From positions 10,011 to 74,010 of the forward strand of contig JACKDM010000023.1 of the NCBI GenBank assembly GCA_020633515.1: DNA of 64,000 nucleotides. Direction: 5' to 3'. Source of the stretch: Myxococcales bacterium (GTDB lineage: Bacteria > Myxococcota > Bradymonadia > UBA7976 > UBA1532). The position numbers were made by a program, and so were the translations under genes. Each line of letters begins with the position of its first letter. Position 1 is the first letter of the stretch. Below, piece after piece: positions 45,073 through 64,000 of the stretch. Under the pieces are notes generated by a model. The model had not been told where the DNA came from, ran no database searches, and saw only the letters and a program-made list of their open reading frames with translations.

Positions 45073-45218
45073 CTGACCTCCAGGGCAGCGAGAGTACACG
45101 CCCCGACCGGGGCTGTCATGCTGCCCGCCGGCCACCGCATTGACCGCCGCCGCCGACCGGGGTTGAATGGCACCCCGCCGGCTTCGTCGGCCGCGCCGCA
45201 CCCGCACCGGGGAGAGAC

Positions 45219-47261: not shown

Positions 47262-48623
47262 ATGGGCAAGCAGAAGACCACCTACGCCTGCGGCGCCTGC
47301 GGCCAGACCTTCGCCAAGTGGCTCGGCCGCTGCACCGCCTGCGGCGAGTGGGGCAGCGTCGACGAGGCGCTCGCCGCGCCCCCGCCCGCCCCGAGCCTCG
47401 GCCTCGCCCCCCGCGCCCCGAGCGAGCCGCAGCGGCTCCGCGAGGTCGAAGGCGCCCCGCCCGCGCGCGCCTCGACCGGCATCGGCGAGCTCGACCGCGT
47501 CCTCGGCGGCGGCCTCGTGCCCGGCGCGCTCGTGCTCGTCGGCGGCGACCCCGGCATCGGCAAGAGCACGCTCCTGCTCCAGGCCAGCGACCGCATCGCC
47601 CGCTTCGGCGTCGACGTGCTCTATGTCACCGGCGAAGAGAGCGCCCGCCAGACCAGGATGCGCTTCGACCGCATCGGCGCCGGCGCCGAGTCGCTCTGGC
47701 TCGTCGCCGAGACCGCGCTCGCCCGCATCGAGCACCACGTCGCCCGCCTCGACCCCCGCGTCCTCGTCATCGACTCCGTCCAGACCCTGCACGCCGACGA
47801 CACCCCCGGCGCGCCCGGCAGCGTCGGGCAGCTCCGCGCCATCACCGCCCGCCTCATGGCGCTCGCCAAGGGCCGCGAGATCGTCACCTTCCTCGTCGGC
47901 CACGTCACCAAGGAGGGCAACCTCGCCGGCCCGCGCCTGCTCGAGCACATGGTCGACACCGTGCTCTACCTGCAAGGCCAGCGCGGCCACCCGTTCCGCC
48001 TGCTCCGCGCCGTCAAGAACCGCTTCGGCAGCACCGACGAGATCGGCGCCTTCGAGATGCGCGGCGACGGGCTGTGCGAGGTCGACAACCCGAGCGCCCT
48101 CTTCCTCGCCGAGCGCGCCGCCGGCGCGAGCGGATCGGTCGTCGCGGCGAGCTTCGAAGGCACCCGCCCGCTCCTCGTCGAGGTGCAGGCGCTCGTCACG
48201 CCCACCGCCTACGGCACCCCGCGCCGCACCGCGATCGGCTTCGACCACAACCGCACCGCGCTCCTGCTCGCCGTGCTCGAGAAGAAGGCCGGCCTCGACA
48301 TCGGCGGCGACGTCTTCGTCAACGTCGCCAGCGGCATCACCCTCGACGAGCCCGCCGCCGACCTCGCCGTCATCGCCGCGCTCGCGTCGAGCCACAACAA
48401 CCGCCCGCTGCACCCCAAGGTCGCCGTCTTCGGCGAGGTCGGCCTCGGCGGCGAGATCCGCGGCGTCATCGGCGCCGACGCCCGCGTCATCGAGGCGCGC
48501 CGGCTCGGCTTCGACCGCATCCTGCTCCCGACCGGCAACCAGGACGCCGCCCGCCTCGTCGGCGAGCAGGGCCTCATCCCCGTCTCGACGGTCGATCAGG
48601 CGCTCGCGGTGATGTTCGACTGA
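47262..48623 (+). CDS. radA: DNA repair protein RadA (Sms)
   Basis: A 453-residue protein of normal RadA length. A C4 zinc finger uses Cys10, 13, 24 and 27 (YACGACGQTFAKWLGRCTAC). A RecA-like ATPase domain has Walker A GGDPGIGKS at 94-102 and the RadA-specific KNRFG motif at 252-256. A Lon-protease-like C-terminal domain carries DVFVNVASGITLDEPAADLA and VFGEVGLGGEIRGV. It drives branch migration in recombination and repair. The ATG at 47262 lies just after the barrel gene. Confidence 0.96.
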   Translation: MGKQKTTYACGACGQTFAKWLGRCTACGEWGSVDEALAAPPPAPSLGLAPRAPSEPQRLREVEGAPPARASTGIGELDRVLGGGLVPGALVLVGGDPGIGKSTLLLQASDRIARFGVDVLYVTGEESARQTRMRFDRIGAGAESLWLVAETALARIEHHVARLDPRVLVIDSVQTLHADDTPGAPGSVGQLRAITARLMALAKGREIVTFLVGHVTKEGNLAGPRLLEHMVDTVLYLQGQRGHPFRLLRAVKNRFGSTDEIGAFEMRGDGLCEVDNPSALFLAERAAGASGSVVAASFEGTRPLLVEVQALVTPTAYGTPRRTAIGFDHNRTALLLAVLEKKAGLDIGGDVFVNVASGITLDEPAADLAVIAALASSHNNRPLHPKVAVFGEVGLGGEIRGVIGADARVIEARRLGFDRILLPTGNQDAARLVGEQGLIPVSTVDQALAVMFD

Positions 48624-49681: not shown

Positions 49682-52600
49682 ATGGATGTCCTCCCGCCCG
49701 GAAGCATGATCGGCAAGTACCCCATCACCCGCCTGATGAGCGCGGGTGGCATGGGGCTCATCTACGAGGCCGTCCACCCCGTCCTCGGCACCCGCGTCGT
49801 CATCAAGACGATCCAGTCCCACCTCGCCCACGACCCGCAGATCATCGACCGCTTCTTCAAGGAGGCCCTCGCCACCAGCCGCATCCGTGACGAGCGACTC
49901 CCGCAGATCTACGACCAGGATCGGCTCGACGACAAGTCGCCCTACATCGTGATGGAGTACCTCGACGGCGAAGACCTCGCGAGCCGCCTCGCCCGCGGGC
50001 CGCTGCCGTTCGAGTACGCGACCCGGGTGATCGTCGAGATCCTCGAGGTGCTGCACCGGGTCCACCAGCTCGACATCGTGCACCGCGACATCAAGCCGCA
50101 GAACATCTTCCTCGCCCGCTCCAACCTGCTCGGCGAGGTCCCCAAGCTCCTCGACTTCGGCGTCGCGCACTTCATCGGCGAGCAGGCGACCGCGCCCGGC
50201 GAGATGATGGGCACGCCGCTCTACATGGCGCTCGAACAGGCCGAGCAGGGCGGCCGCATCGGCCCGTGGACCGACGTCTTCTCCACCGGGGTGATGCTCT
50301 ACGAGTGCCTCGCCGGCCTCGGCCAGCGCCCGTGGGGATCACCCAACGTGATGGGCTACCTCGCCCGCCTCAAGACCGGCACCGCGCCCCGCCGCCTCTC
50401 CGAGCTCGCGCCCCAGACCCCGCCCGGGCTCGTCGACGCGGTCCACACCGCGCTCGCCATCCGCCACGAAGACCGCTTCCCCGACGCCGACCGCTTCGCC
50501 CGCGCGCTCGAACCCTTCGCCCAGCCCCGCGCCGCGCTCTTCGTCGGCGGGGCCGACGTCACCATCGACGCCCGCGCCGCCGCGCCCCGCCTCTACGACG
50601 TCCCCAGCGGCCGCGACGACACCGTCGTCGAGCGCCCCGACCGCATCACCGCCCCGCCCGCCACCTCGGCCAGCGCGCGCACCATGACCGCGCAGGCGAT
50701 CAACAAGCTCTCCAGCCGCCTCCGCCTCCTCGGCCCCGGCCGCAGCACCACCGGCACCATCGAGCGCCTCAAGCCCGGCGAGCGCCGCTACGTCACGCTC
50801 CTCGCCATCTCGATGCAGATCCAGTCGAGCCTGCCCGAGACCGAGCCCGAAGACTTCGACACCGTCGCCGACCAGGTCTTCGAAGTGCTCCAGCGGGTGC
50901 TTCAGAAGGCCGACGCGCAGGTCGAGGCCCCCGTCGGCTGGTCGCTCATCGCCACCTTCGGCGCCGAGCGCACCCGCGAAGACGACGCCGAGCGCGCCAT
51001 CGGCGCCGCCCACCGCCTCATCGCGCAGCAGCGCGCCGTCGACCAGACGCTCACCGAGTACGGCTACGGCCTCAGCCTCCGCGTCGGCGTGCACTCCGGC
51101 TTCGTCACCCGCGCCACCCGCGCCGGCCGCGAGGTCGTCACCGGCGACACCGCCGAGGTCGCCCGCCACCTCGCGCTCGCCGCCCCCATCAACGGCATCT
51201 GCGCCAGCCGCGAGACCCTCGCCATCGTCGGCACCCCCTACCGCTGGCGCCCCATGGGCACCGTCGAGGCCAAGGGCCGCCCCCGCCCCGTCGAGGCCTA
51301 CGAGGTCATCCGCGAGGGCCTCTCCACCGACTTCCGCACCCGCCCCGGCGCCGCCCGCACCTTCGTCGGCCGCGGCCCGGCGTTCGACGTCCTCGAGCAC
51401 GAGTACCTCCTCGCCTCCGTGCCCTCCGGCGAGGTCCGCCTCATCCACGTCGTCGGCCCCGCCGGCGAAGGCAAGAGCCGCCTCCTCGACGAGTTCGTGC
51501 GCTGGCTCCACGACGACCCGAGCCGCCACACCAAGGTCGTGCGCGCCCAGCCCGTCGGCCTCCACCCCTACGGCGTCTGGGCCAGCCTCCTCCGCCAGAT
51601 CCTCTTCGACACCGACGACGTCCGCGCCGCGACCGGCGACGTCGTCGCGCGCCTCACCCAGCTCGCCGGCGCGCTCGACCCCGACGGCGCCGCCGAGCTC
51701 CGCCGCCAGGCATCCGTCGCCCGCCTCATCCTCGGCCGCGGCGAGACCGACGCCCCCGAGCAGACCGACCCCGAGGTCTTCGGCGTCCGCCTCCGCTCGC
51801 TCCTCGCGCTCACCCTCACCGCCGCCGCCCGCCGCACCGCCCGGATCCACGACCGCCCGCTCGTCGTCGTGCTCGACGACATGCACCGCGCCGACCCCAC
51901 CAGCGTCGAGGTCCTCGGCCACATCCCCGGCCTCATCCGCACCGACGTCCCGCCCCTCTTCCTCATCGGCGCCCGCGCCACCTCCGGCCGCCTCGACAGT
52001 TGGGTCAAGGCCCGCGAGCTCTCGCTCGGCCCGCTCCCCGCCGAGGCCGTCGACCGCCTCATCGACGAGGTCGCCGGCGTCCGCACCGTCTCCGACGCCG
52101 TCCGCGCGCTCGTCCGCGGCCGCGCCGGCGGCAACCCGCTCTTCGTCGAAGAGATGGTCCAGATGCTGCGCGCCCGCCGCCAGCTCGACGCCGACGAGGC
52201 CGCGCTCGCCGACCTCGGCCCCCCCGGCTCGCTCTACGGGCTCCTGCTCTCGCGCCTCGACCGCCTCCCCGGCGACCTCCGCACCACCGTGCAGTGGCTC
52301 TCCGTCTCCGGCGCCGACATCGACCCCCGCGTCTGGACCCGCGTCGCCCGCCGCCTCGGCGAAGACGTGCCCCGCCGCCTCTCCCCCGAGACCGAGCTCG
52401 AAGCCCTCGCCGAGCAAGGCGTGCTCGAACCCGCCGAGATCGGCGGCCGCTTCGCCTACCGCTTCCGCCAGCCCCTGCTCCGCGACGCCGTCTACAGCAC
52501 CGTGCTCCCCCACAACCGCCGCCTCCTCCACCTCGCCCACGCCGAGGTCATCGAGGGGCTCTACCCCGAGCCCGACCCCGAGCAGGCGACCCGGCTGCTG

Positions 52601-53803
52601 CACCACTACAGCCACACCGACCGCGAAGACAAAACCGTACACTTCGCCCGCCTCGTCGGCCGCCGCCGCCTCGCGCTCGCCGCCCACGCCGAGGCGCTCT
52701 CCGCGCTCCAGCTCGCCGCGATGCTGCAAGACCGCCTCGCCACCCCCGACCACGAGGCCGCCGTCACCACCCTCCTCGACCTCAGCCGCGCCCTCTTCTA
52801 CCTCGGCCGCCTCGACGACAGCGCCCACCGCGCCAACGAAGCCCTCGGCGCCGCCCCCGCCGACGCCTCCGGCCTCGCCGCCCGCGCCCACGCCGCCGTC
52901 GCCCGCGCCGCGCAGTACCAGGGCAAGTGGGAGCCCGCCCAGACCCACCTCGAACAGGCCGAGCACCTCTACGAAAGAGCCGCCCGCCCCCTCGACGCCG
53001 CCCGCGCCCGCTGCATGCTCGCCTTCGTCATCCGCAGCCGCGGCGGCTCCGTCGAAGAAGCGCTCGAGCTCGCCCGCTCCGGCTGGGCCGTCCTCCGCGA
53101 CGGCGACGCCGCCGCCGCCGTCGTCCGCGCCGGCCACGACCTCGGCAACATCCTCCGCGACCTCGGCCGCTACGACGAGGCCGTCGCCGTCTTCGACCAC
53201 GCCATCGCCCGCGGCCGCCGCGCCAGCGGCGACGCCATCTACGCCCGCCTCCCGTGGTTTCAGGCCTGCCGATCGGGCCGCGCGATCTGCCTCGCCGCGC
53301 TCGGCCGCCTCGACGAAGCCATCGCCGAGCAGCGCCACGTCTACGAAGACGCCCTCCAGACCCGCCACCGCGTCGCGCAGGCCGTCAGCGCCTTCCACCT
53401 CGCCCGCCACCTCGCCGACGCGGGCGACCACGACGCCGCCCGCGAGATGGCCGAGAGCTCGCTCGCCGTCTGCGGCGAGGTCGGCATGCCCGGCCGCGCG
53501 ATGAAGGCCCGCCTCCTCCTCGCCCGCCTCGCCGACGCCGCCGGCGACCCCGCCCGCCAGCGCGAGCACCTCGAAGCCGCCGAGTTCCTCGCCCGTGACG
53601 GCGACCTCACCGTCTGGTTCCAGCGCACCGTCAAGCCGCTCGTCGCCGTGCTCCGCCGCCTCGGCGAGCTCGACCGCGCCGCCGCGCTCCTCGACGAAGC
53701 CCGCCGCCGCGCCACCGAAGAGGTCGAGCCCGCGCTCGTCGCCGAAGCCGACGCGCTCCGCCGCGCCGCCCGCCAGACCGCGCCCCCGCCCCCGCCCCGC
53801 TGA
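49682..53803 (+). CDS. Giant Ser/Thr protein kinase with cyclase-like, AAA and TPR regions
   Basis: A 1,373-residue protein. The kinase domain (about 12-275) has the glycine loop MSAGGMGLIY, VIK with Lys42, HRDIKPQN at 134-141 and LDFG at 157-160, but GTPLYMALEQ at 177-186 has Leu where the conserved APE Pro should be. A class III cyclase-like domain (~375-545, GERRYVTLLAISMQI) lacks the metal-binding Asp, so it is probably non-catalytic. A STAND-like ATPase follows, with GPAGEGKSRLL near 592 and VVVLDDMHRAD, then TPRs from about 1000 to 1330. It resembles AcyC/MalT-type regulators common in myxobacteria. The target is unknown. It is transcribed away from the SIS gene. Confidence 0.9.
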   Translation: MDVLPPGSMIGKYPITRLMSAGGMGLIYEAVHPVLGTRVVIKTIQSHLAHDPQIIDRFFKEALATSRIRDERLPQIYDQDRLDDKSPYIVMEYLDGEDLASRLARGPLPFEYATRVIVEILEVLHRVHQLDIVHRDIKPQNIFLARSNLLGEVPKLLDFGVAHFIGEQATAPGEMMGTPLYMALEQAEQGGRIGPWTDVFSTGVMLYECLAGLGQRPWGSPNVMGYLARLKTGTAPRRLSELAPQTPPGLVDAVHTALAIRHEDRFPDADRFARALEPFAQPRAALFVGGADVTIDARAAAPRLYDVPSGRDDTVVERPDRITAPPATSASARTMTAQAINKLSSRLRLLGPGRSTTGTIERLKPGERRYVTLLAISMQIQSSLPETEPEDFDTVADQVFEVLQRVLQKADAQVEAPVGWSLIATFGAERTREDDAERAIGAAHRLIAQQRAVDQTLTEYGYGLSLRVGVHSGFVTRATRAGREVVTGDTAEVARHLALAAPINGICASRETLAIVGTPYRWRPMGTVEAKGRPRPVEAYEVIREGLSTDFRTRPGAARTFVGRGPAFDVLEHEYLLASVPSGEVRLIHVVGPAGEGKSRLLDEFVRWLHDDPSRHTKVVRAQPVGLHPYGVWASLLRQILFDTDDVRAATGDVVARLTQLAGALDPDGAAELRRQASVARLILGRGETDAPEQTDPEVFGVRLRSLLALTLTAAARRTARIHDRPLVVVLDDMHRADPTSVEVLGHIPGLIRTDVPPLFLIGARATSGRLDSWVKARELSLGPLPAEAVDRLIDEVAGVRTVSDAVRALVRGRAGGNPLFVEEMVQMLRARRQLDADEAALADLGPPGSLYGLLLSRLDRLPGDLRTTVQWLSVSGADIDPRVWTRVARRLGEDVPRRLSPETELEALAEQGVLEPAEIGGRFAYRFRQPLLRDAVYSTVLPHNRRLLHLAHAEVIEGLYPEPDPEQATRLLHHYSHTDREDKTVHFARLVGRRRLALAAHAEALSALQLAAMLQDRLATPDHEAAVTTLLDLSRALFYLGRLDDSAHRANEALGAAPADASGLAARAHAAVARAAQYQGKWEPAQTHLEQAEHLYERAARPLDAARARCMLAFVIRSRGGSVEEALELARSGWAVLRDGDAAAAVVRAGHDLGNILRDLGRYDEAVAVFDHAIARGRRASGDAIYARLPWFQACRSGRAICLAALGRLDEAIAEQRHVYEDALQTRHRVAQAVSAFHLARHLADAGDHDAAREMAESSLAVCGEVGMPGRAMKARLLLARLADAAGDPARQREHLEAAEFLARDGDLTVWFQRTVKPLVAVLRRLGELDRAAALLDEARRRATEEVEPALVAEADALRRAARQTAPPPPPR

Positions 53804-53838: not shown

Positions 53839-53867
53839 TTCTCACCGCCCTCTTCCTGCCCTATCCT
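53839..53867 (+). promoter_or_regulatory. Candidate promoter of the TrpD-like/HDO/NHLP operon
   Basis: TTCTCA at 53839-53844 and TATCCT at 53862-53867 are separated by 17 bases, each a 4/6 match to the sigma-70 consensus. A GAGAGGGG ribosome site at 53888-53895 precedes the ATG by five bases. The location, in the 97-base gap after the kinase gene, would give the operon its own promoter. Confidence 0.35.
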
Positions 53868-53900
53868 GACGCGCACCACGACGAAGCGAGAGGGGTTGCG

Positions 53901-55028
53901 ATGGCACCGGCCTTCGATCAAGACGCGATGCGCGCCTTCGGGAAGCTGATCGGGCGCATGATCGGCAAAGAGCCGCTCACCCGAGACGAGACCCGCGACG
54001 CCTACCGCCAGATCTATGGCAACCAGCAACCCGAGCTCCAGCAAGGCGCCTTCATCGCCGCGCACAAGGCCAAGGGCGAGACCGTCGACGAGCTCGTCGG
54101 GCTCGTCGAGGCCCACACCGAAGAGTGGATCCGCTGCTTCACCCACGAGGTCCGCGCGCCCCGTCCCCACGTCGGCATCGTCGGCGTCGGCATGGACAGC
54201 ATGAAGACCTTCAACATCTCCAGCACCTCGGCCGTCGTCGCCGCCGCCTGCGGGATCTACGTGCACAAGGTCGGCGCCCCCGGCATGACCAGCATCACCG
54301 GCTGCGCCGACGCCTTCCAGCTCTGGGGCGTCGACGGCCAGGGCCCGCTCGACAAGCAGGTGCAGTCCGTCGCCGCCTGCCGCCTCGGCTTCACCACCCC
54401 CGTCACCCCCCACCTCAAGCACATGGGCATCGCCCGCGTCCTCAGCCAGCTCCGCATCCCCACCTCCATGCACCTCGCCGGCCCCCTCGACCGCCACAGC
54501 GGCGAGCGCCACAAGATCGTCGGCGTGCCCGAGCCCCGCTACGTCGACATGATCGGCCAGACCCTCGCCCGCCTCGGCTTCTACAAGCGCGCGCTCGTGC
54601 CCTGCGGCGGCGTCGACGCGCTCCCCGGCCGCTACCTCGACGAGTTCAGCAACCTCGGCGCCACCGAGGTCGCCGAGCTGCACGAAGACGGCACCGTCGA
54701 GCGATACACGCTGCGCCCCGCCGACGTCGGGCTCGAGGTCGCCGACTACCGTGACGTCCAGAGCGCCGACACCCGCGAAGCCAACGCCCGCCTCGGCGCC
54801 CGCATCATCGCCGGCAAGGGCAACCGCGCGCAGACCGACCTCGTCGCGTTCAACGCCGCCGCCGCGCTCCGCGTCCTCGGCGAAGCCGACTGGAAGGACG
54901 GCATCGCCCGCGCCCGCGAAGCCATGGCCACCGGCGCCGCGCTCGCGCAGCTCCGCGCGCTCATCGAGCACCAGAACCGCGACCCCGCCGACGGCCTCGC
55001 GCGCCTCGACGCGCTCCTCGCCGGCTGA
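53901..55028 (+). CDS. Divergent anthranilate phosphoribosyltransferase (TrpD)-like protein
   Basis: A 375-residue protein with the TrpD fold pattern. An N-terminal helical domain (LTRDETRDAYRQIYGNQQP) is followed by GVGMDSMKTFNISSTSAVVA at 95-114, where TrpD has GTGGD-x-x-KTFNIST. HKVGAPGMTSITGCADAF at 122-139 replaces the usual HGNRAVSSKSGSAD. GRYLDEFSNLGATEVAEL at 243-260 keeps the catalytic-site Asp-Glu. The C-terminal DLVAFNAAAAL is typical. The PRPP/anthranilate loops are altered, and no trp gene is nearby, so a different substrate is likely. It opens the operon with the oxidase-like and NHLP genes, the next start being three bases after its stop. Confidence 0.8.
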   Translation: MAPAFDQDAMRAFGKLIGRMIGKEPLTRDETRDAYRQIYGNQQPELQQGAFIAAHKAKGETVDELVGLVEAHTEEWIRCFTHEVRAPRPHVGIVGVGMDSMKTFNISSTSAVVAAACGIYVHKVGAPGMTSITGCADAFQLWGVDGQGPLDKQVQSVAACRLGFTTPVTPHLKHMGIARVLSQLRIPTSMHLAGPLDRHSGERHKIVGVPEPRYVDMIGQTLARLGFYKRALVPCGGVDALPGRYLDEFSNLGATEVAELHEDGTVERYTLRPADVGLEVADYRDVQSADTREANARLGARIIAGKGNRAQTDLVAFNAAAALRVLGEADWKDGIARAREAMATGAALAQLRALIEHQNRDPADGLARLDALLAG

Positions 55029-55030
55029 CG

Positions 55031-55906
55031 GTGACCGCCGCCCCCACCTGTGAATGGGCCCGCGTCGCGCCCGACGAGATCATCGTCGCCGACGCCAAGA
55101 GCGCCCGCCTCCACCGCCCCGATCCCATCGCCCCCGACCCGTTCCGCGCCCCGATGACCGGCCCCGGCAGCGTCGAGACCACCCGCTGGCTCCTCGAAGG
55201 CGCCATCGCCGCCGGCCTCCGCGCCGCCCGCCACGACGCCGCCGGCCTCACCCCGCCCCCGCTCGACCTCCACCGCTGGGCGTGGCGCCTCTGCGGCCTC
55301 TACCACATGACCACCGAGACCCCCGCGCTCCTCGCCGAGGCCGAGGCCCGCTTCACCCACCTCGCCCGCCCCGCGCTCGCCGCCTGGGCCGCCGACCGCC
55401 GCCGCGAAGAGACCGGCCACGACCGCCTCGCGCTCCGCGACCTCCGCGCGCTCGGCCTCGACCCCGCCATCGTGCACCGCGTCCACCCCCCCGCCGCCCG
55501 CCGCCTCGTCGACTGGTTCCGCGCCGCCGTCCGCGACGAACCCCTCCCCCTCGGCGCGCTCGCCTACGCCCACACCGTCGAACGCCTCGCGCTCCGCTTC
55601 GGCCGCGCCTACCTCGACCGCGTCCTCGCCATCCTCCCCCGCGGCGTCGACGCCACCCGCTGCCTCCGCGTGCACAGCGCCGTCGGCACCGACGCCGGCC
55701 ACGTCGACGACAACATCACCGTCGTCGCCGCGCTCCCCGCCGACGAACGCGCCCGGATCGCGCTTGCCTGTCGGGAAGTTGCGTGGCTATCATCGACTCC
55801 GCCCACCGGCGGGTACTGCGATCGAGCATCCCTGCTGACGATGTTCGGGTCGCTGGGGGCGAGCGAACCGGGCGCTGACCCGAAGAAGGAGTGGAGAGAT
55901 GGGTGA
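55031..55906 (+). CDS. Haem-oxygenase-like (HDO-type) di-iron oxidase candidate
   Basis: A 291-residue all-helical protein with no signal peptide. The residue pattern fits the haem-oxygenase-like di-iron oxidase/oxygenase superfamily: Glu96 (TTETPALL), EETGHDRLALRDL at 126-138 with Glu127 and His130, Glu184 (HTVERLA), and a last metal helix VHSAVGTDAGHVDDN with His215, Asp221 and His224. The His-Asp spacing is longer than the usual HxxxDxxH, so ligand assignment is tentative. Known members perform N-oxygenation or C-C cleavage. The GTG start at 55031 follows the TrpD-like stop by two bases. The end overlaps the NHLP gene by eight bases, implying co-translation with that peptide. Confidence 0.65.
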   Translation: MTAAPTCEWARVAPDEIIVADAKSARLHRPDPIAPDPFRAPMTGPGSVETTRWLLEGAIAAGLRAARHDAAGLTPPPLDLHRWAWRLCGLYHMTTETPALLAEAEARFTHLARPALAAWAADRRREETGHDRLALRDLRALGLDPAIVHRVHPPAARRLVDWFRAAVRDEPLPLGALAYAHTVERLALRFGRAYLDRVLAILPRGVDATRCLRVHSAVGTDAGHVDDNITVVAALPADERARIALACREVAWLSSTPPTGGYCDRASLLTMFGSLGASEPGADPKKEWRDG

Positions 55907-56153
55907 CAAGGCGAACGCGTGGCGCGACATCACCAAGCGCGCCTGGGAAGAGCCGGCCTTCAAGGACCGCCTGCTCACGGATCCCGACGGCGTGCTGAAG
56001 GACTACGGCATCGACCGCACCAACGGCGTCAACTACCGGGTCGTCGAAGACGAGCCCGGCGTGCGCCACCTCGTCCTCATGCAGCCCCCCGGCAACGTCG
56101 CGGTCGAAGAGATCGACCACGAGCCGCTCTCCGACGAGAACCCCGGCTTCTGA
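55899..56153 (+). CDS. NHLP-family leader/precursor peptide
   Basis: An 84-residue protein matching the nitrile-hydratase-alpha-like leader family used by many RiPP precursors. It has AWRDITKRAWEEPAFKDRLL, then DPDGVLKDYGI and the beta-strand pair VNYRVVEDEPGVRHLVLMQP leading to PPGN. The usual ending (LSDEEL...GG plus core) is not present; it ends EPLSDENPGF, so any core is only about eight to fifteen residues, or the peptide acts as a scaffold. A gaaggagtggagag Shine-Dalgarno lies within the upstream oxidase gene. Its neighbours are a halogenase, a hydroxylase and an S53 protein. Being a precursor is inferred from family and context. Confidence 0.8.
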   Translation: MGDKANAWRDITKRAWEEPAFKDRLLTDPDGVLKDYGIDRTNGVNYRVVEDEPGVRHLVLMQPPGNVAVEEIDHEPLSDENPGF

Positions 56154-56193
56154 GCCCGCCCCCCGACCGCGCCCCCGAGTCAACGGGCCGCGG

Positions 56194-58035
56194 TCACGCC
56201 TCCTCCTCGACCCTCCGCGCCTCGGCGGCCGCCTTCTCGGCCATCTCCTTGCCGTGCGCCACCACCGCGTCGAGCAACGCCGTGCCCCGCGGCACCCCCA
56301 GCCCCGTCGCCGGATCCCAGAACGCCCCCGCCTCGAAGCCCGGCAGCTCCACGTCCCGCGGCTGCCCCCCGTGATCGATCGTCCGGATCGTCACATCGGT
56401 CCGCCCCGCGATGATGTCCCGAAACGGCCGCGGCGCCCCCGAGTCGACGTAGCGATGCTTCTGCGCGATCTCGTACAGCAGCGGGTTGACGAACCCCACC
56501 CGCCGCAGCCCCGCCGCCCGCCGCGCCTGATTGATCCGCGCCAGCAGCGCCCCCCAGATCGGCGCCCCCACGCTCGTCCCGCCCGCGAAGTCCACCCACC
56601 GCCCGCTCACCAGCGCCCGATAACCCCGCGCCGACGGCGCCTCCGACGGCCGCCGCTGCACCGAGTCACCCACCGCCATGATCGACACATCGGGCACCCC
56701 CCGCCCGTACGCCAGCACCGCCGGCGCGTGCGGCCCCCGCGAATACGGCTTGTGGACCCGCTTCTCGTGGTTGATCACCTGAAAGCCCTGCCAGTCCGGG
56801 ATCGGCACCTCCGCGCTGAACCCGCCCCCGCCCGCCATCCGCGACAACGGGCTCCGCCCCCCCCACCCCGGCGGCAACGGCCCGCTCCACGCCAGCTCCG
56901 TCAGCGGATCCACCTCCGTGATCATCGTCCCGCCCACGCCCAGCACCCGCTCCTCACACGCCGGAAACACCGCCCGCGGCCACGGCGCGTCGCTCACCGG
57001 ATAACCATTCGACTGCGTCCGCGGCACCCCATCGTACGCCCCCCAATCCCCCGCCGCCGCCACCACGCTGATCCCCAGCACCGCGCACTGATCGAGCAAC
57101 CCCGTGATCACCCGCGACCCATAGGCCGCGTAGTAGTCCCGCTCCGGGATCAACCAGCTCGTCACCGCGATCGTCGGCCGCCACGACGAATCGGCCACCG
57201 AAGCCATCAAAAACGCCGCCCACTTGTCCGCGATGATCTGCCGATCCATCACATAGGTCACGATGCGCGCGCCCGGAGCCATCGCCCCGGCCCACTGCAC
57301 GCCCATCGCCGCCTCCATCGCCTCCGCCTTGTCCGGCGCCTGCGACGGCGCCGGCCCGATATGCACCACCTGCGGCGGCTCCCGCACGATGCCATGCGCC
57401 CGCCAGAACGCATCGCACTCCACCGGATCGGGCGCCGCGTCCAGCAACAGCAGCGCGATCGTCTCCCCGCTCCCATCCCACTCCGCCGGGAAGTCATAGA
57501 TCCGCGCGATATCCGCCGGACCCATGCCACCAAACCCCGAAGGCATCGCCGGCGGCCCCGCCTGATCGTGCAGCACCCCGTGGTTCTCGGTCGCCGCCAC
57601 CGCCAGGAAGCAGTTCCCATCCAGCCAATGCCGGCTCTTCTCCGCGTCCCGCAGCACCTGCACGCCCTGAACGTAGCCCGCCAGCCGCGCCGGGATCTGC
57701 CAATCGATCCGCCGCGGCCGATCGGCGTGCGGGTTCTCCAGCCACCGCCGCGCCCGCTCCCCGAACGCCTCGGCGAACGCCTGGCGCGAGCACCGCAGGA
57801 ACGCCGCGAGCGGATAGGGCGGCTGCACCGGCGTCGGCTCGATCCCCCGGTTCCCCAGCCACTCCAGCACCTCCGCCCGCCCGTGCTCCGACGGCGAGAT
57901 CGCGTCGAAGAGCACCTCGCGCGTCTCATAGGGATCGACACAATCGAGCGCCGTCAGCGCGTCCGCCTGCGCGCTCAGCTCCGCCGCGTGATCCGGCGTC
58001 CACAGCAAGGTCATGAAGACATCAGCGCTGCTCAT
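56194..58035 (-). CDS. Sedolisin (S53)-like peptidase domain protein lacking the catalytic Asp
   Basis: A 613-residue protein with no signal peptide. Residues 1-~140 are a helical region of unknown family. The S53 domain has the Ser motif AGGTSVGAPIWGALL with Ser488, oxyanion Asp330 in AAAGDWGA, and the calcium-site segments FRDIIAG and FWDPATGLG. In the Glu-x-x-x-Asp motif the Glu is present (Glu241) but the Asp is replaced by Gly245 (EAAMGVQWAGAMAPGA). It may be an inactive or altered protease. The ATG at 58035 overlaps the halogenase stop by four bases. It faces the NHLP gene, 40 bases apart. A candidate leader-processing or peptide-binding partner. Confidence 0.85.
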   Translation of the reverse strand: MSSADVFMTLLWTPDHAAELSAQADALTALDCVDPYETREVLFDAISPSEHGRAEVLEWLGNRGIEPTPVQPPYPLAAFLRCSRQAFAEAFGERARRWLENPHADRPRRIDWQIPARLAGYVQGVQVLRDAEKSRHWLDGNCFLAVAATENHGVLHDQAGPPAMPSGFGGMGPADIARIYDFPAEWDGSGETIALLLLDAAPDPVECDAFWRAHGIVREPPQVVHIGPAPSQAPDKAEAMEAAMGVQWAGAMAPGARIVTYVMDRQIIADKWAAFLMASVADSSWRPTIAVTSWLIPERDYYAAYGSRVITGLLDQCAVLGISVVAAAGDWGAYDGVPRTQSNGYPVSDAPWPRAVFPACEERVLGVGGTMITEVDPLTELAWSGPLPPGWGGRSPLSRMAGGGGFSAEVPIPDWQGFQVINHEKRVHKPYSRGPHAPAVLAYGRGVPDVSIMAVGDSVQRRPSEAPSARGYRALVSGRWVDFAGGTSVGAPIWGALLARINQARRAAGLRRVGFVNPLLYEIAQKHRYVDSGAPRPFRDIIAGRTDVTIRTIDHGGQPRDVELPGFEAGAFWDPATGLGVPRGTALLDAVVAHGKEMAEKAAAEARRVEEEA

Positions 58036-59798
58036 GCCACCAGCTCCACGAATCCCTTCTTCGCCGCGTTGCGCAGGATCACCAGCGTGCTCCGCCGGAT
58101 GTCCGCCGCCGGCGCGAACCCCGGCGGCAACAGCCCCGGCGCCGCCTCCACCAGATCGGCCACCCGCGAAAACCGCGGGATCGCCTCGACCACCGGCCCG
58201 AGCGACGGCGCGATCTTGCACGGCGCCGCCGCGTAGCGATGGGCGAACGCGAAGTCATCGGCGACCAGATCGTGGAACGTCGACAGCCGCCCCGGACACA
58301 CCTTCGGATCCGCCTCCGCCCGCAGCGCCAGCCGAAACGGCGTCCGCACCCGGATCTCCGCGTCGAGCAGCCCGTCGAGCTCACCCACCCCGTCGTCGTG
58401 ATAGATGTTGAACAGATCCGCCTCGGCCCCGGTGAGCCCCCGGATCAACGGCGCCATGATCTCCACCGAGATCGCGCGCGGATGCGGGAAGAACCCCGCC
58501 GTCGCCATCGTGAACGCCGAGCGATCCGACAGATCGAGCCGGCCCGACTGATTGACGAGCCGCTGCGCCTGCCACCACCACGACTCCGCCGCCCGGTTGT
58601 TGCCATAGTAGAAGCGCGCGAGCTGCAGGTAGCTCCCCGCCTCGCCCCGGATGTAGTCCGCGTACGCCCGCCACAGCGCGTCCCGCTCCGCCGGCCGCTC
58701 CCGCGCCGTCATGAACGTGTAGGCCGCCCGGTGCCCGCTCTGCACCGCCAGCGTCACCCCGCTCGACAGCACCGGATCGATGAAGATCGCCGCGTCCCCC
58801 GCCGCCGCGAACCCCGGCCCGATCGGGCTCTCCGCCCACCCCGACCAGTCCCGATGCGCCGTCACCCGCTTCCCGCCCGGGATCACGTCGTCGCGCAGCG
58901 CCGCGTTCGCGATCAACGGCGCGATCTCCGGCGCCTGCCGCACCATCTCCCAGAAGAAGGTCTCGAGATCGACCTCCCGCAGCCGGTCCTTGAAGTGCGC
59001 CGTATTGGTCACCGCGCCCACGCTCATGATGTCCGGCGCCACCGGGATGTACCAGATCCAGCCCTGCGGCACGGTCACGATGAAGACCGTGCTCGCGTCC
59101 TGCCGCCCGCGGAACAGCACCTTCCAATCCGCGCCGCGCAGGTAGCCGTTCACCGCGAAGTTGGCGAGCCCCGCGTCGTACACCCGCTTGCCCCGCGTCA
59201 GCATCGCCCGCAGCCCCGACGCGTCGAGCACGAACGGCGCCTCGATCCGCCCCTCCGCGCCCGCCTCATCGCGCCACGACACCCCCGCCACCGCCCCGTC
59301 CGCGTCGTAGTGGATCGCCGTCGCCTCCACCCCCTCGCGCACCTCGGCCCCGAACTTCGCCGCCTGCTGGATCAGCAGGTGGTCGAACTCCGCGCGCCGC
59401 ACGTTGATCGAGGTCAGCGGGATGTCACGCCGCATCTCCCGCCGCATCAGCTCCGAGAAGTCCTGCCCGACGACGTTGATCACCTGCGCGCCGTCGCTCT
59501 CGTACTTCTCGATCTCCAGATAGTCCGCGTCCCACGGCTGCCGATCGGCCCCCCAGACGAAGGTCACCCCCATCTTGCGCACGAAGCGGCCGTCGTAGAG
59601 CGTGTCGAAGAGCTCGAGCTCGTGGAAGACCCCGTTGATCACCGGGATCGTGCTCTCGCCGATGTGATAGCGCGGGTGATGGGCCCGCTCGAGAAGGGTC
59701 ACCGAGACATCGGGCGCGTACTTGGCGACGATCGCGGCGAAGGTGCTGCCCGCCGGCCCGCCGCCAATGACCACGCAGTCGCGCTTCTCGATCTTCAT
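58032..59798 (-). CDS. Flavin-dependent halogenase
   Basis: A 588-residue protein with all halogenase hallmarks: FAD motif GGGPAGS at 12-18, GESTIP at 47-52, the Lys75 segment RKMGVTFVWG matching the catalytic Lys of CmlS/phenolic-type halogenases, WIWYIP (WxWxIP) at 247-252 and GDAAIFIDPVLSSGV at 334-348 (FxxPxxSxG). It would use reduced flavin, oxygen and halide to chlorinate or brominate a substrate. A reductase is not encoded nearby. aggagacgggtggg precedes the ATG. It is co-translated with the S53 protein (ATGA) and divergent from the hydroxylase. A related FAD monooxygenase without halogenation is the alternative. Confidence 0.88.
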   Translation of the reverse strand: MKIEKRDCVVIGGGPAGSTFAAIVAKYAPDVSVTLLERAHHPRYHIGESTIPVINGVFHELELFDTLYDGRFVRKMGVTFVWGADRQPWDADYLEIEKYESDGAQVINVVGQDFSELMRREMRRDIPLTSINVRRAEFDHLLIQQAAKFGAEVREGVEATAIHYDADGAVAGVSWRDEAGAEGRIEAPFVLDASGLRAMLTRGKRVYDAGLANFAVNGYLRGADWKVLFRGRQDASTVFIVTVPQGWIWYIPVAPDIMSVGAVTNTAHFKDRLREVDLETFFWEMVRQAPEIAPLIANAALRDDVIPGGKRVTAHRDWSGWAESPIGPGFAAAGDAAIFIDPVLSSGVTLAVQSGHRAAYTFMTARERPAERDALWRAYADYIRGEAGSYLQLARFYYGNNRAAESWWWQAQRLVNQSGRLDLSDRSAFTMATAGFFPHPRAISVEIMAPLIRGLTGAEADLFNIYHDDGVGELDGLLDAEIRVRTPFRLALRAEADPKVCPGRLSTFHDLVADDFAFAHRYAAAPCKIAPSLGPVVEAIPRFSRVADLVEAAPGLLPPGFAPAADIRRSTLVILRNAAKKGFVELVA

Positions 59799-59852
59799 CC
59801 CACCCGTCTCCTGTCCTCTTCTGACCGCGATAGCCTATACTCTCGCCTCACC
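59799..59852. promoter_or_regulatory. Divergent promoter region between halogenase and hydroxylase genes
   Basis: This 54-base gap holds TATACT at 59836-59841 on the plus strand, only 11 bases before the GTG of the hydroxylase, so that message is probably leaderless. On the minus strand tatagg/tatcgc in the same spot could be the -10 of the halogenase operon, whose Shine-Dalgarno lies at about 59805-59815. Overlapping divergent -10 boxes suggest joint regulation of the two sides. Confidence 0.5.
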
Positions 59853-60635
59853 GTGTACCAGCGCCCCCACCCGCGAAGTGAGCACCCCGTCCGCAAGCCG
59901 CGCCGCTTCGCGCGGCTCCCCGGCGGCTTCGACCCCGCGCCGCTCGTCGCCGAGCTCCGCGCCGTCGCCCCCTGGTTCGCGCCGGCCGCCGAGCTTCACG
60001 CTGCGACCCGATCGGACGAGCCGGCCAGCGAGCCACCGCCGCCCTGGATCGCGAGCCAGTGGAAGTGGCACCTCGGCACGTACTTCCTCGTCCTCCGCGG
60101 CGGCCCCCCGACCACCATCCCCGGCGGCATGCTGACCAGCGGCGCCGGCGTCGACGCGCCCCTGCTCGACCAGCTCCCCGCGCACCGCGCGCTCCTCGAC
60201 GCCGCCACCGGCCCCCTCCCCGCGCCCGCCGCGCTCGCCTGGATCGGCCTCAGCCCGCCCGGCGCCCGGATCCACCTCCACGTCGACAACACCCGCCACT
60301 GGGACGAGCACCACCGCGTGCACCTCCCGCTCGTCACCACCCCCGCCGCGCGCCTCTGCGTCGACCGCCGCTTCTTGCACTTCCCCGCCGGCACCTGCTG
60401 GGCGATCGACAACAGCGCCCCCCACGGCGCGCACAACGCCGGCCCCGCGCGGCTGCACCTGATGGTCGACCTGCCGCCGACCCCCGCCGTCGAAGCCTGG
60501 ATGGCCGCCGGCGAAGTGATCGACGGCGACGAAGACCCCGCCACCCTCGCCGCGCTCGCCGCCGACCCGCTCGCCCACCTCGGCCCCCGCGAACGCGCCG
60601 ACCCGGCCCTGCTCGGGCGCCTCCTCCGCCAGTGA
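59853..60635 (+). CDS. Aspartyl/asparaginyl beta-hydroxylase-like 2-oxoglutarate oxygenase
   Basis: A 260-residue cytoplasmic protein. Residues 130-207 match the AspH double-stranded beta-helix: PGARIHLHVDN with His143 (or 141), RVHLPLV with Arg155/His157, WAIDNSAPHGAHN with His191 as second iron ligand, and ARLHLMVDL with Arg200 for 2-oxoglutarate. Such enzymes hydroxylate Asp/Asn side chains using Fe(II), oxygen and 2-oxoglutarate, including in RiPP maturation. The GTG start at 59853 follows a -10 box by 11 bases with no Shine-Dalgarno. Placement beside halogenase, S53 and NHLP genes makes a peptide substrate plausible; the NHLP tail has Asp and Asn. Confidence 0.8.
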   Translation: MYQRPHPRSEHPVRKPRRFARLPGGFDPAPLVAELRAVAPWFAPAAELHAATRSDEPASEPPPPWIASQWKWHLGTYFLVLRGGPPTTIPGGMLTSGAGVDAPLLDQLPAHRALLDAATGPLPAPAALAWIGLSPPGARIHLHVDNTRHWDEHHRVHLPLVTTPAARLCVDRRFLHFPAGTCWAIDNSAPHGAHNAGPARLHLMVDLPPTPAVEAWMAAGEVIDGDEDPATLAALAADPLAHLGPRERADPALLGRLLRQ

Positions 60636-60665: not shown

Positions 60666-61361
60666 TCAGCCCTCGCCCGCGCCCTCCGGCCGCCGCCACT
60701 GCCCGATCGGCGGCAGCGGCGCGCGGTCGCGCAGGTCGACGTCCTCACCCACCTGCGCCGGCCACACCCGATCGAGCCGCCAGCGGTGCCCATCGTGCCG
60801 CATCGCCCAGAAGTGCATCACCTGCCGCGGCGCCTTGTCGCCCTCGATCACCGTCCCGTCCGGCTGCACGACGCAGTCGATCGCCTTCTGCTCCAGCCGC
60901 AGCAACAGCTCCACCCCCCGCGGCGGCGGCCCCTCGTCGACCGCGTACATGCCCAGCGGATGCACCTTCAGCACCCGATCCAGCCTCGCTGCGTGCTCGT
61001 GCCCCTGCCGCCGCTGCGCCTCGAACGCCGCCGCCTGCTCGGCCAGGAACCGCGCCGTCACGAAGCCCTCGATGCTCGACAGATCCCGCCGCCGCCAGCC
61101 ATCCCAGATATGCGGCGCGCACGCCTCGACCCACCGCTTGAGCCGATCGATGTCGAACTCGGGGAAGAACGGCCCGATCTCGTCCATCAGCCGCTTGAGC
61201 GTGCGCCGCTCCGCGAGCTGCTCGCGGAACACCACCCGCCCCACCAGCGCCATCACGATCACCGCGCCGGTCCAGAAGATCAGCCGCGTGCTGAACTCCA
61301 GCTCCGCCGGCGCCTCCGCCGCCTGCGCGAGCGCCCCGGCCGGCAACTGCATGAGAAGCAT
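60666..61361 (-). CDS. Membrane-associated Tim44-like domain protein
   Basis: A 231-residue protein. A signal-like N-terminus (MLLMQLPAGALAQAAEA) is followed by one membrane helix (LIFWTGAVIVMALVGRVVF). The C-terminal domain (FFPEFDIDRLKRWVEACAPH, RRRDLSSIEGFVTARFLAEQ, VELLLRLEQKAIDCV, VMHFWAMRHDGHRWRLDRVW) is of the Tim44-like/NTF2-like type. The role is unknown, perhaps membrane protein handling. The ATG at 61361 shares its A with the helicase stop (TGATG). An in-frame ATG at 61382 would add seven residues. It sits on the minus strand behind the helicase. Confidence 0.75.
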   Translation of the reverse strand: MLLMQLPAGALAQAAEAPAELEFSTRLIFWTGAVIVMALVGRVVFREQLAERRTLKRLMDEIGPFFPEFDIDRLKRWVEACAPHIWDGWRRRDLSSIEGFVTARFLAEQAAAFEAQRRQGHEHAARLDRVLKVHPLGMYAVDEGPPPRGVELLLRLEQKAIDCVVQPDGTVIEGDKAPRQVMHFWAMRHDGHRWRLDRVWPAQVGEDVDLRDRAPLPPIGQWRRPEGAGEG

Positions 61362-63283
61362 CACGATTCGGCGACGTGCCATGTCTCCACCAGCGCGGGA
61401 TCGGTGTGAGGCAGCTCCTCGACGAAGCGGCTGATGCCCCGCGGCACGCCGCCGTCGCCCACCGGGCTGCACAGGTGCAGGTGCCGCCGGGCGCGGGTCA
61501 CCGCCACGTAGAACAGCCGCCGCTCCTCGTCGAGCGCGCCCGGCCGCCGATCGGCGAACGCGGGGAACAGGCCCTCGGCGAGCCCGATCACCGTCACCGC
61601 CGTCCACTCGAGCCCCTTCGCCTGATGGATCGACGACAACACCAGGCAATCACCCGCCTCATCGGCGTCGAAGCCATCGACGAGCGCCAGCCCCTCCAGG
61701 AAGCCCGCCACGTCCCCGCTCTGCGCCGCGTGCCGCGCGATCGCCGCCAGATCGGCCGCCCGCTCGCCGTGATCCTCCGGATACAGCCGCGGCAGCGCCG
61801 CCCGCAGCCCGCCGTCGAGCACGGCCGCCACCATCGCCCCCGGCCGCTCCGCCTGCGCCATCGCCAGGAGCGTCGCCCGCGCCGCCCGCCACCCCGGCCC
61901 CAGCCGCCCATCCAGCCCCGACCCCGGCACGTCGTCCACGATCGCCCGCCACGGATCCCCCGTCTCGAACAGCGCCCCGATCAACCGATCGGCCCCCGCC
62001 GCCCCGATCCCCGGCTGCAACCGCAGCGCCCGCCGCCACGCCGGCACATCGAACGGGTTCACCCACGCCCGCAGCCACGCCAGCAGGTCGCGCACATGCG
62101 CCCGCTCCAGCATCCGCGGCCCGCTCCGCAGCACGAACGGCAGCCCCTGCCGCCCCAGCTCGAGCTGCAGCGCCCGCGCGTGGGCGTGCGCCCGATACAG
62201 CACCGCCTGCTCCCCGAGCGGCACCCCCGCCCCCACCAGCTCGCGCGCCCGCGCCGCCACGAAGCGCGCCTCCTGCCCCTCGTCCGCCAGCCGCACGAAC
62301 ACCGGCCGCGGCCCCGCCGCCACCCCCGGCGCCGCCGTCGACACCTTCTCCAGCCGCTGCCCGATCCCCGAGAGCGCCGCGTTCGCGACCGCCACCACCG
62401 CCGGCGTCGACCGATAGTTCGTCAGCAGCGACACCCGCCGCGACCCCATCCACCGATGCTCGAACGCCAGGATGTGCCCCACGCTCGCGCCCCGGAAGCC
62501 ATAGATCGCCTGCGCGTCGTCGCCCACCGCCGTCACGTTGCCGTGCCCGCTCCCGATCATCGACACCAGCGCCGCCTGCAACGGGTTGGTGTCCTGGTAC
62601 TCATCGACGAGCACCTGCCGGAACCGCTCGGCCAGCGCCGCCCGCACCCCGTCGTCCTCGCTCAACAAGAGGTGCCCGTGCGCGAGCAGATCGTCGTAAT
62701 CGAGCGCGTTCAGCTCGAGCTTGCGCGCGCAATAGCGCCCGAGCACCCCCTCGATCGCGCCCGTCACCTCGCGATGCCGCGGCGCGAGCCGCTCCACCGC
62801 CGCCGCGATCGCCTGATCGGCGTTGAGCGACAGCGACAGGATCCGCAACAGCACCCGCGGCGCCGGCAGCATCCGCCCGAGCCCCGCCGGCCCCTCGCCG
62901 AGCACCTCGTCGAGCACCTCGCCCGCGCTCGCCGGATCGAGCAGGCCGAAGTCCCGCCGCAGCCCGATCCGATCCCCGAACTGCCGCAGGATCCGCGCCG
63001 CCACCGCGTGAAAGGTCCCCGCCTCGATCGCCCGCGCCGCCGCCGGATCGAGCAGCGCCGCGATCCGCGCCACCATCTCCCGCGCCGCCTTCTGGGTGAA
63101 CGTCAACAACAGGATCCGCGCCGGATCCTCCCCCTCCGCCACCAGCCGCGCCACCCGCCGGGTCAGCACCCGCGTCTTGCCGCTCCCCGCGCCCGCCACC
63201 ACCAACAGCGGCCCCGGCCCCGCCAACACCGCCGCCCGCTGCGCGTCGTCGAGATCGGCCAGCAGCGCCGACGCCCCTACCAC
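61361..63283 (-). CDS. UvrD/Rep-family superfamily 1 DNA helicase
   Basis: About 640 residues from the GTG at 63283, which overlaps the branching-enzyme-like gene stop. Motifs in order are LDDAQRAAVLAGPGPLLV (Q motif), AGAGSGKTRVL (Walker A), LVDEYQDTNPLQ (Walker B), GDDAQAIYGFRGA (motif III), LLTNYRST (IV), IHQAKGLEWTAV (V) and VAVTRARRHLHL (VI). It is an ATP-driven 3'-5' DNA unwinder for repair or replication restart. No nuclease domain is seen. At 640 residues it is slightly shorter than UvrD of enterobacteria. Whether it is UvrD, PcrA or Rep cannot be told. Confidence 0.93.
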   Translation of the reverse strand: MVGASALLADLDDAQRAAVLAGPGPLLVVAGAGSGKTRVLTRRVARLVAEGEDPARILLLTFTQKAAREMVARIAALLDPAAARAIEAGTFHAVAARILRQFGDRIGLRRDFGLLDPASAGEVLDEVLGEGPAGLGRMLPAPRVLLRILSLSLNADQAIAAAVERLAPRHREVTGAIEGVLGRYCARKLELNALDYDDLLAHGHLLLSEDDGVRAALAERFRQVLVDEYQDTNPLQAALVSMIGSGHGNVTAVGDDAQAIYGFRGASVGHILAFEHRWMGSRRVSLLTNYRSTPAVVAVANAALSGIGQRLEKVSTAAPGVAAGPRPVFVRLADEGQEARFVAARARELVGAGVPLGEQAVLYRAHAHARALQLELGRQGLPFVLRSGPRMLERAHVRDLLAWLRAWVNPFDVPAWRRALRLQPGIGAAGADRLIGALFETGDPWRAIVDDVPGSGLDGRLGPGWRAARATLLAMAQAERPGAMVAAVLDGGLRAALPRLYPEDHGERAADLAAIARHAAQSGDVAGFLEGLALVDGFDADEAGDCLVLSSIHQAKGLEWTAVTVIGLAEGLFPAFADRRPGALDEERRLFYVAVTRARRHLHLCSPVGDGGVPRGISRFVEELPHTDPALVETWHVAES

Positions 63284-64000
63284 GACGCGAAGACCTCGAG
63301 GTCCAGCTCGGCGAACGGCCCCCCCGCCTCCGCCGCGCTCCGCGGCCCCTCCGCGTCGAGCAGATCGGCCCGCAGCGCCGCGAACGCGTCGAGGTGCCCC
63401 CGCAGCGCCGTCACCGCCGCGTCCGCCGCGACCCCATCCTCGATCATCACCGGCCAGTCCCCGCACTGCGCCAGCAACAGCGCCTGCGCCGCTTGTACCG
63501 CCACCCCCCGCATCCGCGGCACCGTCCCGGTGTAGCGATCGGCCAGCGTCGTCATCTGCCGCGCCGCCCGCGGCAGCGCCCCGAGCAACCACGCCCGATC
63601 CGGCCGCGCCGCCGCCGCGAAGCCCCCATCCCCGCCCAGCCGCGCCAGCCCCGGCCACGCCGACTGATTCACCGGATGCCGTTCGAGCACCGCCGACGGC
63701 GTCGCGAGCACATCACCCCCCAGCCGCGCCGCCGCCTCCACGAACGCCGGCCCCTCCGCCCACCACCGCCCGAACAGCGCCGCGTCGAAGAACGCCACCC
63801 GATGCGGCGCCCGATCGATCCCCGCCCCCGCGAGCGCCGCCCGCTGCGCCGCGAGCCACTCCCCCGCCAGCGCCCCCGCCGCCGCCTCCGCCGCGTCGAG
63901 ATCCCGCGGCGCCCCGAACGGCCGCGCCGCCATCGCCCGCTCCCCCCGCCCCGCGAAGCCCAGCGCCTCCGGATGCAGCGCCAGATGCAGCGACGCTGGC
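63277..64000 (-). CDS. GH57-family glucan branching enzyme-like protein, C-terminal part
   Basis: The frame is open to the right edge, so the N-terminus is outside the window. About 240 residues are seen, ending at TAG 63277. RVAFFDAALFGRWWAEGPAF corresponds to the conserved YDAELFGHWW-like region with the catalytic-domain Asp. LPRAARQMTTLADRYTG and AQALLLAQCGDWPVMIEDGV match the helical C-terminal part of GH57 1,4-alpha-glucan branching enzymes (DUF1957). It acts on glycogen-like polymers in that family. An internal ATG at 63933 is not the true start. The stop overlaps the helicase start. Confidence 0.75.
   Translation of the reverse strand, partial: PASLHLALHPEALGFAGRGERAMAARPFGAPRDLDAAEAAAGALAGEWLAAQRAALAGAGIDRAPHRVAFFDAALFGRWWAEGPAFVEAAARLGGDVLATPSAVLERHPVNQSAWPGLARLGGDGGFAAAARPDRAWLLGALPRAARQMTTLADRYTGTVPRMRGVAVQAAQALLLAQCGDWPVMIEDGVAADAAVTALRGHLDAFAALRADLLDAEGPRSAAEAGGPFAELDLEVFASW

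Follow-up and report, generated by a model that had tools for sequence, protein, structure and literature searches.

Polypeptides are the substrates of the flavoenzymes QhpG, LodB and GoxB in quinone-cofactor maturation, where QhpG acts as a hydroxylase and where the Qhp system includes a serine protease. Flavin-dependent halogenation of a precursor peptide is described for SrpI, which brominates the C-terminal Trp of the nitrile-hydratase-like leader peptide (NHLP) SrpE (PMC10858898); in the accessible text of two reports, the folded first half of the SrpE leader is largely dispensable, with a modest loss, and the later part is mainly needed (PMC10858898, PMC12615548). Heme-oxygenase-like proteins have entered peptide chemistry through thiovarsolin biosynthesis, in which desaturation of an Arg side chain is proposed for VarO, a suggested dehydrogenase whose deletion removes a desaturation from thiovarsolin (PMC6511847), and through MboA, an acetylenase of the heme-oxygenase-like dimetal oxidase (HDO) superfamily that generates a side-chain alkyne on a peptide in mangotoxin (PMC13185094). 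In the accessible sections of a 2026 review of HDOs, thiovarsolin is the sole ribosomal-peptide case cited (PMC13108848).

The locus described here combines an HDO, a halogenase, an S53 protein, an AspH-family hydroxylase, a TrpD-like protein and a small peptide, a gene set for which searches of the open-access PMC literature listed no description, and the analysis points to a peptide-modifying, RiPP-like pathway outside the proteusin/NHLM class. The window (the whole analysed stretch of 64,000 nucleotides, from a Myxococcales bacterium) carries the six adjacent genes in three units, at 53901-56153 (plus strand), 56194-59798 (minus) and 59853-60635 (plus), an arrangement given in the preliminary description and borne out here: all six reading frames between 53901 and 60635 are found at their coordinates in the window sequence, third-position GC is 0.91-0.96 in each (0.80 for an antisense ORF over AspH), and codon bias is that of the genome. 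The coupled starts that had been reported for these units are likewise present, with 2 bases between the TrpD-like stop and the HDO start, an 8-base overlap of the peptide ATG with the HDO end, and a 4-base overlap of the S53 ATG with the halogenase TGA; a gap of 54 bases separates the divergent halogenase and AspH genes. No NHLM-type ABC transporter with peptidase was found in a scan of the 15 genes called between 41568 and 63658, nor did the window genes scanned include a YcaO or an amino-acid-adding enzyme. Apparently unrelated neighbours encode an MMPL-family transporter (42571-45207), a RadA-like ATPase (47262-48623), a Tim44-like protein (60666-61649) and a UvrD-type helicase (61361-63658).

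HDO and peptide together are the basic and most widespread unit of the system, in which an NHLP leader is optional. The HDO (55031..55906, plus strand; PF14518 38.7 bits, cut-off 28.9) has the heme-oxygenase-like fold by which its superfamily is recognised, and sequence mapping onto the known 3H/3C metal ligands (as defined in the accessible text of PMC13108848) yields a candidate ligand set of E127, H130, E184, H215, D221 and H224; across 47 aligned HDO sequences D221 is conserved in at least 90% and the other five residues are invariant. Its profile retrieves 3dde as the best match in the PDB and MboA as the second, weakly (17 bits, E 0.016). The putative precursor peptide (55899..56153, plus) scores above the cut-off of PF02979 (34.4 against 27.2 bits) and below that of the NHLP model TIGR03793 (41.7 against 50.9 bits), and divides into an NHLP-like leader (residues ∼1-61) and a C-terminal tail whose last ten residues, EPLSDENPGF (56121..56150, plus), are conserved as a tail both among homologues and among peptides that lack NHLP and adjoin HDO in other genomes. 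The predicted structure of the peptide, of low confidence (pLDDT 63.6), has helices and strands as far as residue 61, beyond which the tail looks disordered (pLDDT <50), the modelled division into ordered part and tail being as expected for a leader and core.

The tail motif L-[STGH]-D-x-[NDE]-x-G-F is shared by 11 peptide types of myxobacteria whose genomes all carry the halogenase, with L(-8), D(-6), G(-2) and F(-1) invariant in 11/11; this count takes L046 to represent four Polyangium, L051 three Nannocystis and L095 the genomes G186 and G362, and excludes L022 (which keeps G-F, has no D at -6 and has a halogenase cut by the contig end) as well as L012, L070 and L031, where no halogenase was found. 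C-terminal Phe is the sole aromatic residue common to all 11 types, Trp and Tyr being absent from the last nine residues in 10 of them and Polyangium having Tyr. A broader pattern, (hydrophobic)-(x)-[STGNH]-D-x5-6, drawn up after the peptides were seen and therefore giving post hoc counts, ends 58 of the 118 ORFs that follow HDO on its own strand, compared with 1 of 90 opposite-strand ORFs and 355 of 23,600 shuffled peptides. Such an ORF follows HDO in 56 of the 88 loci scanned (of 89, one being too short downstream), where the match in L044 looks like chance; L022, L070 and some cyanobacterial types deviate from the pattern, and in Polyangium the NHLP peptide sits elsewhere in the cluster and not directly after HDO. 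A profile built from 14 short peptides retrieved 190 homologous proteins, and in 110 of the 120 listed an Asp is followed by 5 or 6 residues; those of the 120 with a named organism are all cyanobacterial except Minicystis, and nearly all are annotated 'hypothetical protein'. A conserved C-terminal motif is what a modified core would have, and the last ten residues are the likely modified core.

The preliminary description had named the NHLP peptide as the substrate of the neighbouring enzymes. On comparison the NHLP leader is not the unifying part: the short peptide of Minicystis, Nannocystis, L062, G186 and G362 lacks NHLP and ends in the same tail. Nine of the 13 HDO genomes have an NHLP match of ≥59 bits, with weak matches (28-29 bits) in 2 of 24 controls; of the others, G007, G186 and G362 carry a short peptide of non-NHLP type, and G229 has no recognisable peptide. 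The HDO tree, which has several long branches, contains at least two changes between NHLP and short-peptide loci, and leaders may thus have been exchanged. A second cyanobacterial HDO-linked peptide type of ∼98 residues (L015, L016, L019, L020, L024 and L034) has a hydrophobic N-terminal stretch, no SD motif and variable ends, for example GIDGF. Two tandem NHLP peptides ending AAVGF and AAVVF follow HDO in an armatimonadete (L070:899-1413).

Across 84,980 species genomes, 111 HDO relatives were identified, and in the best 80 of 111 loci, with flanks of ≤10 kb, TrpD-like proteins were counted in 11, NHLP in 12, S53 in 11, halogenase in 10 (one a contig-end fragment) and AspH in 5; all six genes lie within ∼7 kb in four Polyangium genomes (species). 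Within a sample of 377 Myxococcota genomes the HDO family (threshold 1e-30) is present in 13, and at family-level scores the halogenase (1e-60 and ≥764 bits; 12 genomes), S53 (1e-50; 11) and TrpD-like (1e-70; 10) families occur exclusively among these 13, with hypergeometric values of 9e-22, 2e-19 and 2e-17, respectively, that ignore kinship and overstate independence because the 13 genomes represent perhaps 6-8 lineages on a rough estimate. At E 1e-60 the halogenase is matched in 25 genomes, 12 at ≥764.8 bits and the other 13 at ≤278.3. In a search of 39 genomes for AspH (1e-10), 12 of these 13 had a match of ≥318 bits, against 0 of 24 Myxococcota controls, one of which has a weak match of 52 bits; halogenase and AspH are present together in 12 HDO genomes, and in G229 the HDO stands without any partner family. 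The set is split over different contigs in G004, G067, G005, G173 and G253, and the G004 halogenase lies near the middle of a 78.6-kb contig, which puts >35 kb between it and the HDO genes; several of these five genomes are metagenome bins, whose short contigs may adjoin in truth. Chance falls far short of explaining how often the enzyme families occur together, in linked genes or on separate contigs.

Beyond this phylum sample, at thresholds of 1e-40 for halogenase and S53, 1e-20 for AspH and 1e-60 for TrpD-like, the four families were detected in 0 of 37 cyanobacterial HDO genomes (best halogenase 240 bits), and a single Minicystis genome and a single Nannocystis genome carry halogenase and S53 and lack AspH and TrpD-like; the armatimonadete has HDO, the two NHLP peptides and S53. 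These searches score the best candidates per genome (3-6 in the phylum searches), such that absences hold at the thresholds used and are not absolute, and genes in the loci were called with a simple GC-frame script that misplaces some. The conserved co-occurrence that the preliminary description had proposed as a check holds in the Myxococcota sample, in most of the 13 HDO genomes for each family, and stops short of the cyanobacteria; HDO homologues without the partners, which that description had set against its proposal, are found in the 37 cyanobacteria and, for AspH and TrpD-like, in the one genome each of Minicystis and Nannocystis, and are not general in the Myxococcota sample. Partial sets outside the sample suggest that the other enzymes were added, or lost, stepwise. 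That cyanobacterial HDO and peptide exist without the rest would fit an arrangement of six genes that are neighbours by chance, with a peptide that is not a substrate, an explanation hardly credible in view of the exclusive co-occurrence in Myxococcota, even across contigs, and of the occurrence of S53 and AspH in one frame.

This single frame was identified in G186 and G362 (L155:6023-9046, minus; L156:7191-10670, plus), where S53 and AspH are fused without interruption and the order is HDO, peptide, halogenase, S53-AspH, all on the same strand; as the two genomes are close relatives, the fusion counts as a single event. The window S53 (sedolisin/kumamolisin-like) protein (56194..58035, minus; phmmer against kumamolisin 1e-25) has in Pfam a prodomain match alone, below threshold, and retains Ser488, Glu241 and Asp330, with Gly245 at the position of the catalytic Asp. 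Taking Ser, Glu and Asp to be the catalytic triad of S53, an alignment of 16 sequences, fewer than all relatives found, has Ser and Glu in 16/16, the oxyanion Asp in 14/16 and the catalytic Asp in 0/16 (G, T, A or S at that position), and assignment as an ordinary S53 sedolisin peptidase was rejected on this basis. A docking role is favoured by the loss of the catalytic Asp together with the S53-AspH frame. The AspH-family 2-oxoglutarate hydroxylase (59853..60635, plus; PF05118 38.2 bits, cut-off 22.6) has H143-x-D145, H191 and R200 invariant in 6/6 aligned sequences, presumably the functional H-x-D ... H ... R residues of the family (PF05118), and the family profile matches L-proline cis-4-hydroxylase 4p7w at 1.5e-8. 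Polyangium also has a second S53 of this family away from the HDO genes (L149:5482-7287 and L150:5456-7249), in which the catalytic Asp is absent and around which no other family was matched in 13 kb.

The CmlS/CndH-like flavin-dependent halogenase (58032..59798, minus; PF04820 102 bits) has halogenases as all nine of its best PDB matches, down to 2e-46. K75, GES, WIWYIP and FIDPVLSSG are present in the window protein, and K75, GES, WIWY[IF]P and F[IV]DP[VI]LS[ST]G in 8/8 aligned halogenases, corresponding to what we take to be the motifs of flavin-dependent halogenases (GES, the catalytic Lys, W-x-W-x-(I/F)-P and F-x-x-P-x-x-S-x-G); the Lys aligns with that of 8zop, 3e1t and 5buk. Among NCBIfam models CmlS scores 185 bits versus 112 for QhpG, both below their own cut-offs, and LodB and GoxB also match below cut-off; judged by sequence, the flavoenzyme could instead be a QhpG-like hydroxylase.

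The TrpD-like protein (53901..55028, plus; PF00591 146 bits, PF02885 48 bits) scores 192.5 against the NCBIfam trpD model (cut-off 199.05), and in 9/9 aligned sequences GVGMD replaces GTGGD, presumably the functional loop of TrpD; it was accordingly not accepted as a true TrpD anthranilate phosphoribosyltransferase, and should bind a phosphoribosyl donor. Directly upstream lies a Ser/Thr kinase/cyclase-like/AAA_16/TPR protein (49682..53803, plus; PF00069 105 bits, PF13191 60 bits), probably regulatory and possibly a sensor, which is related to the TOMM kinase/cyclase family TIGR03903 and scores too far below its cut-off for membership (244 against 706 bits). Relatives of the kinase are found upstream of TrpD-like in L002, L003, L006, L022 and L062, with no kinase match in the flanks examined at L001 or the four Polyangium loci. 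Near the cyanobacterial HDOs, a WD40-type family recurs, occurring with 43 of the 81 sequences that were clustered (the window and 80 loci; one member scanned), exemplified by L005:4357-7911, of ∼1,180 residues with a stretch tentatively read as P-loop-like, and small proteins also recur, one of the two scanned matching ribbon-helix-helix families. Two Bradyrhizobium HDOs lie near a protein of the window-kinase type (L078:5287-8694 and L080:5308-8715; SAM/cyclase/AAA_16/TPR in L078, the one scanned), with no tail-motif peptide directly after HDO in either locus. An intracellular signal or regulatory peptide, sensed by the large multidomain protein encoded nearby (in myxobacteria kinase/AAA_16/TPR, in cyanobacteria WD40) and not secreted as a product, would accord with the recurrence of such proteins beside HDO in all three groups and with the lack of an NHLM-type exporter among the genes scanned; it is judged very unlikely, as the kinase is unmatched in the examined flanks of L001 and the four Polyangium loci, and large multidomain proteins are abundant in these genomes, making neighbourhood weak evidence.

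Small molecules may also be built on a peptide, as in the pearlin-type scaffold idea, and the C-terminus (G-F) could analogously carry a small molecule built from the last residue or residues and then cut off, with the rest of the peptide recycled. Confinement of conservation to the extreme C-terminus (G-F in 11/11 myxobacterial types), the missing NHLM-type exporter among the window genes scanned, and the presence of TrpD-like and CmlS-like proteins, enzyme kinds common in small-molecule pathways, are consistent with such a carrier, which is nevertheless considered unlikely: the scanned window genes encode no amino-acid-adding enzyme, conservation over ∼9 residues is more than a one-residue carrier requires, and the S53 protein, on which release of the product would fall, has no catalytic Asp.

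The probable reading is a RiPP-like pathway, of inferred chemistry, that targets the last ∼9 residues of a small precursor peptide. The precursor would be made with a nitrile-hydratase-like leader here and a different N-terminus in relatives, its last ∼9 residues (P-L-S-D-E-N-P-G-F in the window) forming the substrate. With most confidence, the HDO would oxidise the tail first, probably by desaturation, hydroxylation or oxidative decarboxylation, a founding reaction given that HDO and peptide are the widest unit; with second-ranking confidence, AspH would hydroxylate a tail residue, most simply Asp -6. Third in confidence, S53 may bind the peptide and present it to AspH and the halogenase, or alternatively cleave it by a changed mechanism; fourth, the halogenase would act late, at a position activated by the earlier steps; the C-terminal Phe is not activated by itself, which would require either prior oxidation to activate it or a flavoenzyme that hydroxylates. 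Least confidently, the TrpD-like protein might attach a ribose-phosphate or similar group. The RiPP-like reading draws support from exclusive co-occurrence in the Myxococcota sample, the split contigs, the compact Polyangium clusters, the S53-AspH frame, the tail motif and the precedents of VarO and MboA for the HDO and of SrpI for the halogenase, and is weakened by halogenase-linked tails mostly lacking Trp/Tyr, with the flavoenzyme possibly a hydroxylase; by the lack of an NHLM transporter in the scanned genes and the existence of HDO and peptide alone in cyanobacteria; and by G229, without partners or recognisable peptide, and a tail pattern in no more than 56 of 88 loci.

More speculatively, and with some doubt, these loci may represent a new RiPP class, spread over myxobacteria, cyanobacteria and one or more acidobacteria (an armatimonadete having a variant), that is defined by a tail Asp 6-7 residues from the end, not by its leader, and read by a dedicated HDO, to which myxobacteria would add a sedolisin docking the peptide for Asp hydroxylation, halogenation at the HDO-activated site, and TrpD-derived transfer of ribose-phosphate to the peptide. 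An HDO family is here tied to small peptides with a shared tail in cyanobacteria and myxobacteria (190 found), rendering its reaction testable with two genes; the myxobacterial halogenase, AspH, altered S53 and TrpD relative offer new peptide chemistry, and in the S53 protein a protease may have been repurposed for peptide docking.

Among described systems, NHLP/NHLM proteusins share the nitrile hydratase alpha family leader of the window peptide and differ in that no NHLM transporter occurs in the scanned genes, the leader falls below the TIGR03793 cut-off and it is replaced in related loci; the locus was not assigned to the proteusin/NHLM class. SrpI/SrpE similarly pairs a flavin-dependent halogenase with an NHLP-leader peptide, but SrpE ends in Trp and is also YcaO-modified, whereas the window tail ends G-F with no YcaO in the scanned genes, and the window halogenase is nearest CmlS/CndH-type enzymes, unlike the SrpI system. 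QhpG, LodB and GoxB are flavoenzymes of the same superfamily, from which the window enzyme is set apart by the higher CmlS score, the retained halogenase Lys and the lack of a quinoprotein subunit among what was seen. MboA has an E-x-x-H-D stretch similar to that of the window HDO and is very remote in sequence, and we know of no link between MboA and NHLP peptides or a halogenase. The thiovarsolin pathway (VarO, with precursor VarA) employs YcaO/TfuA thioamidation and a repeating precursor, neither seen in the window locus, and differs in partners and peptide, but likewise has a heme-oxygenase-like protein in a ribosomal-peptide pathway.
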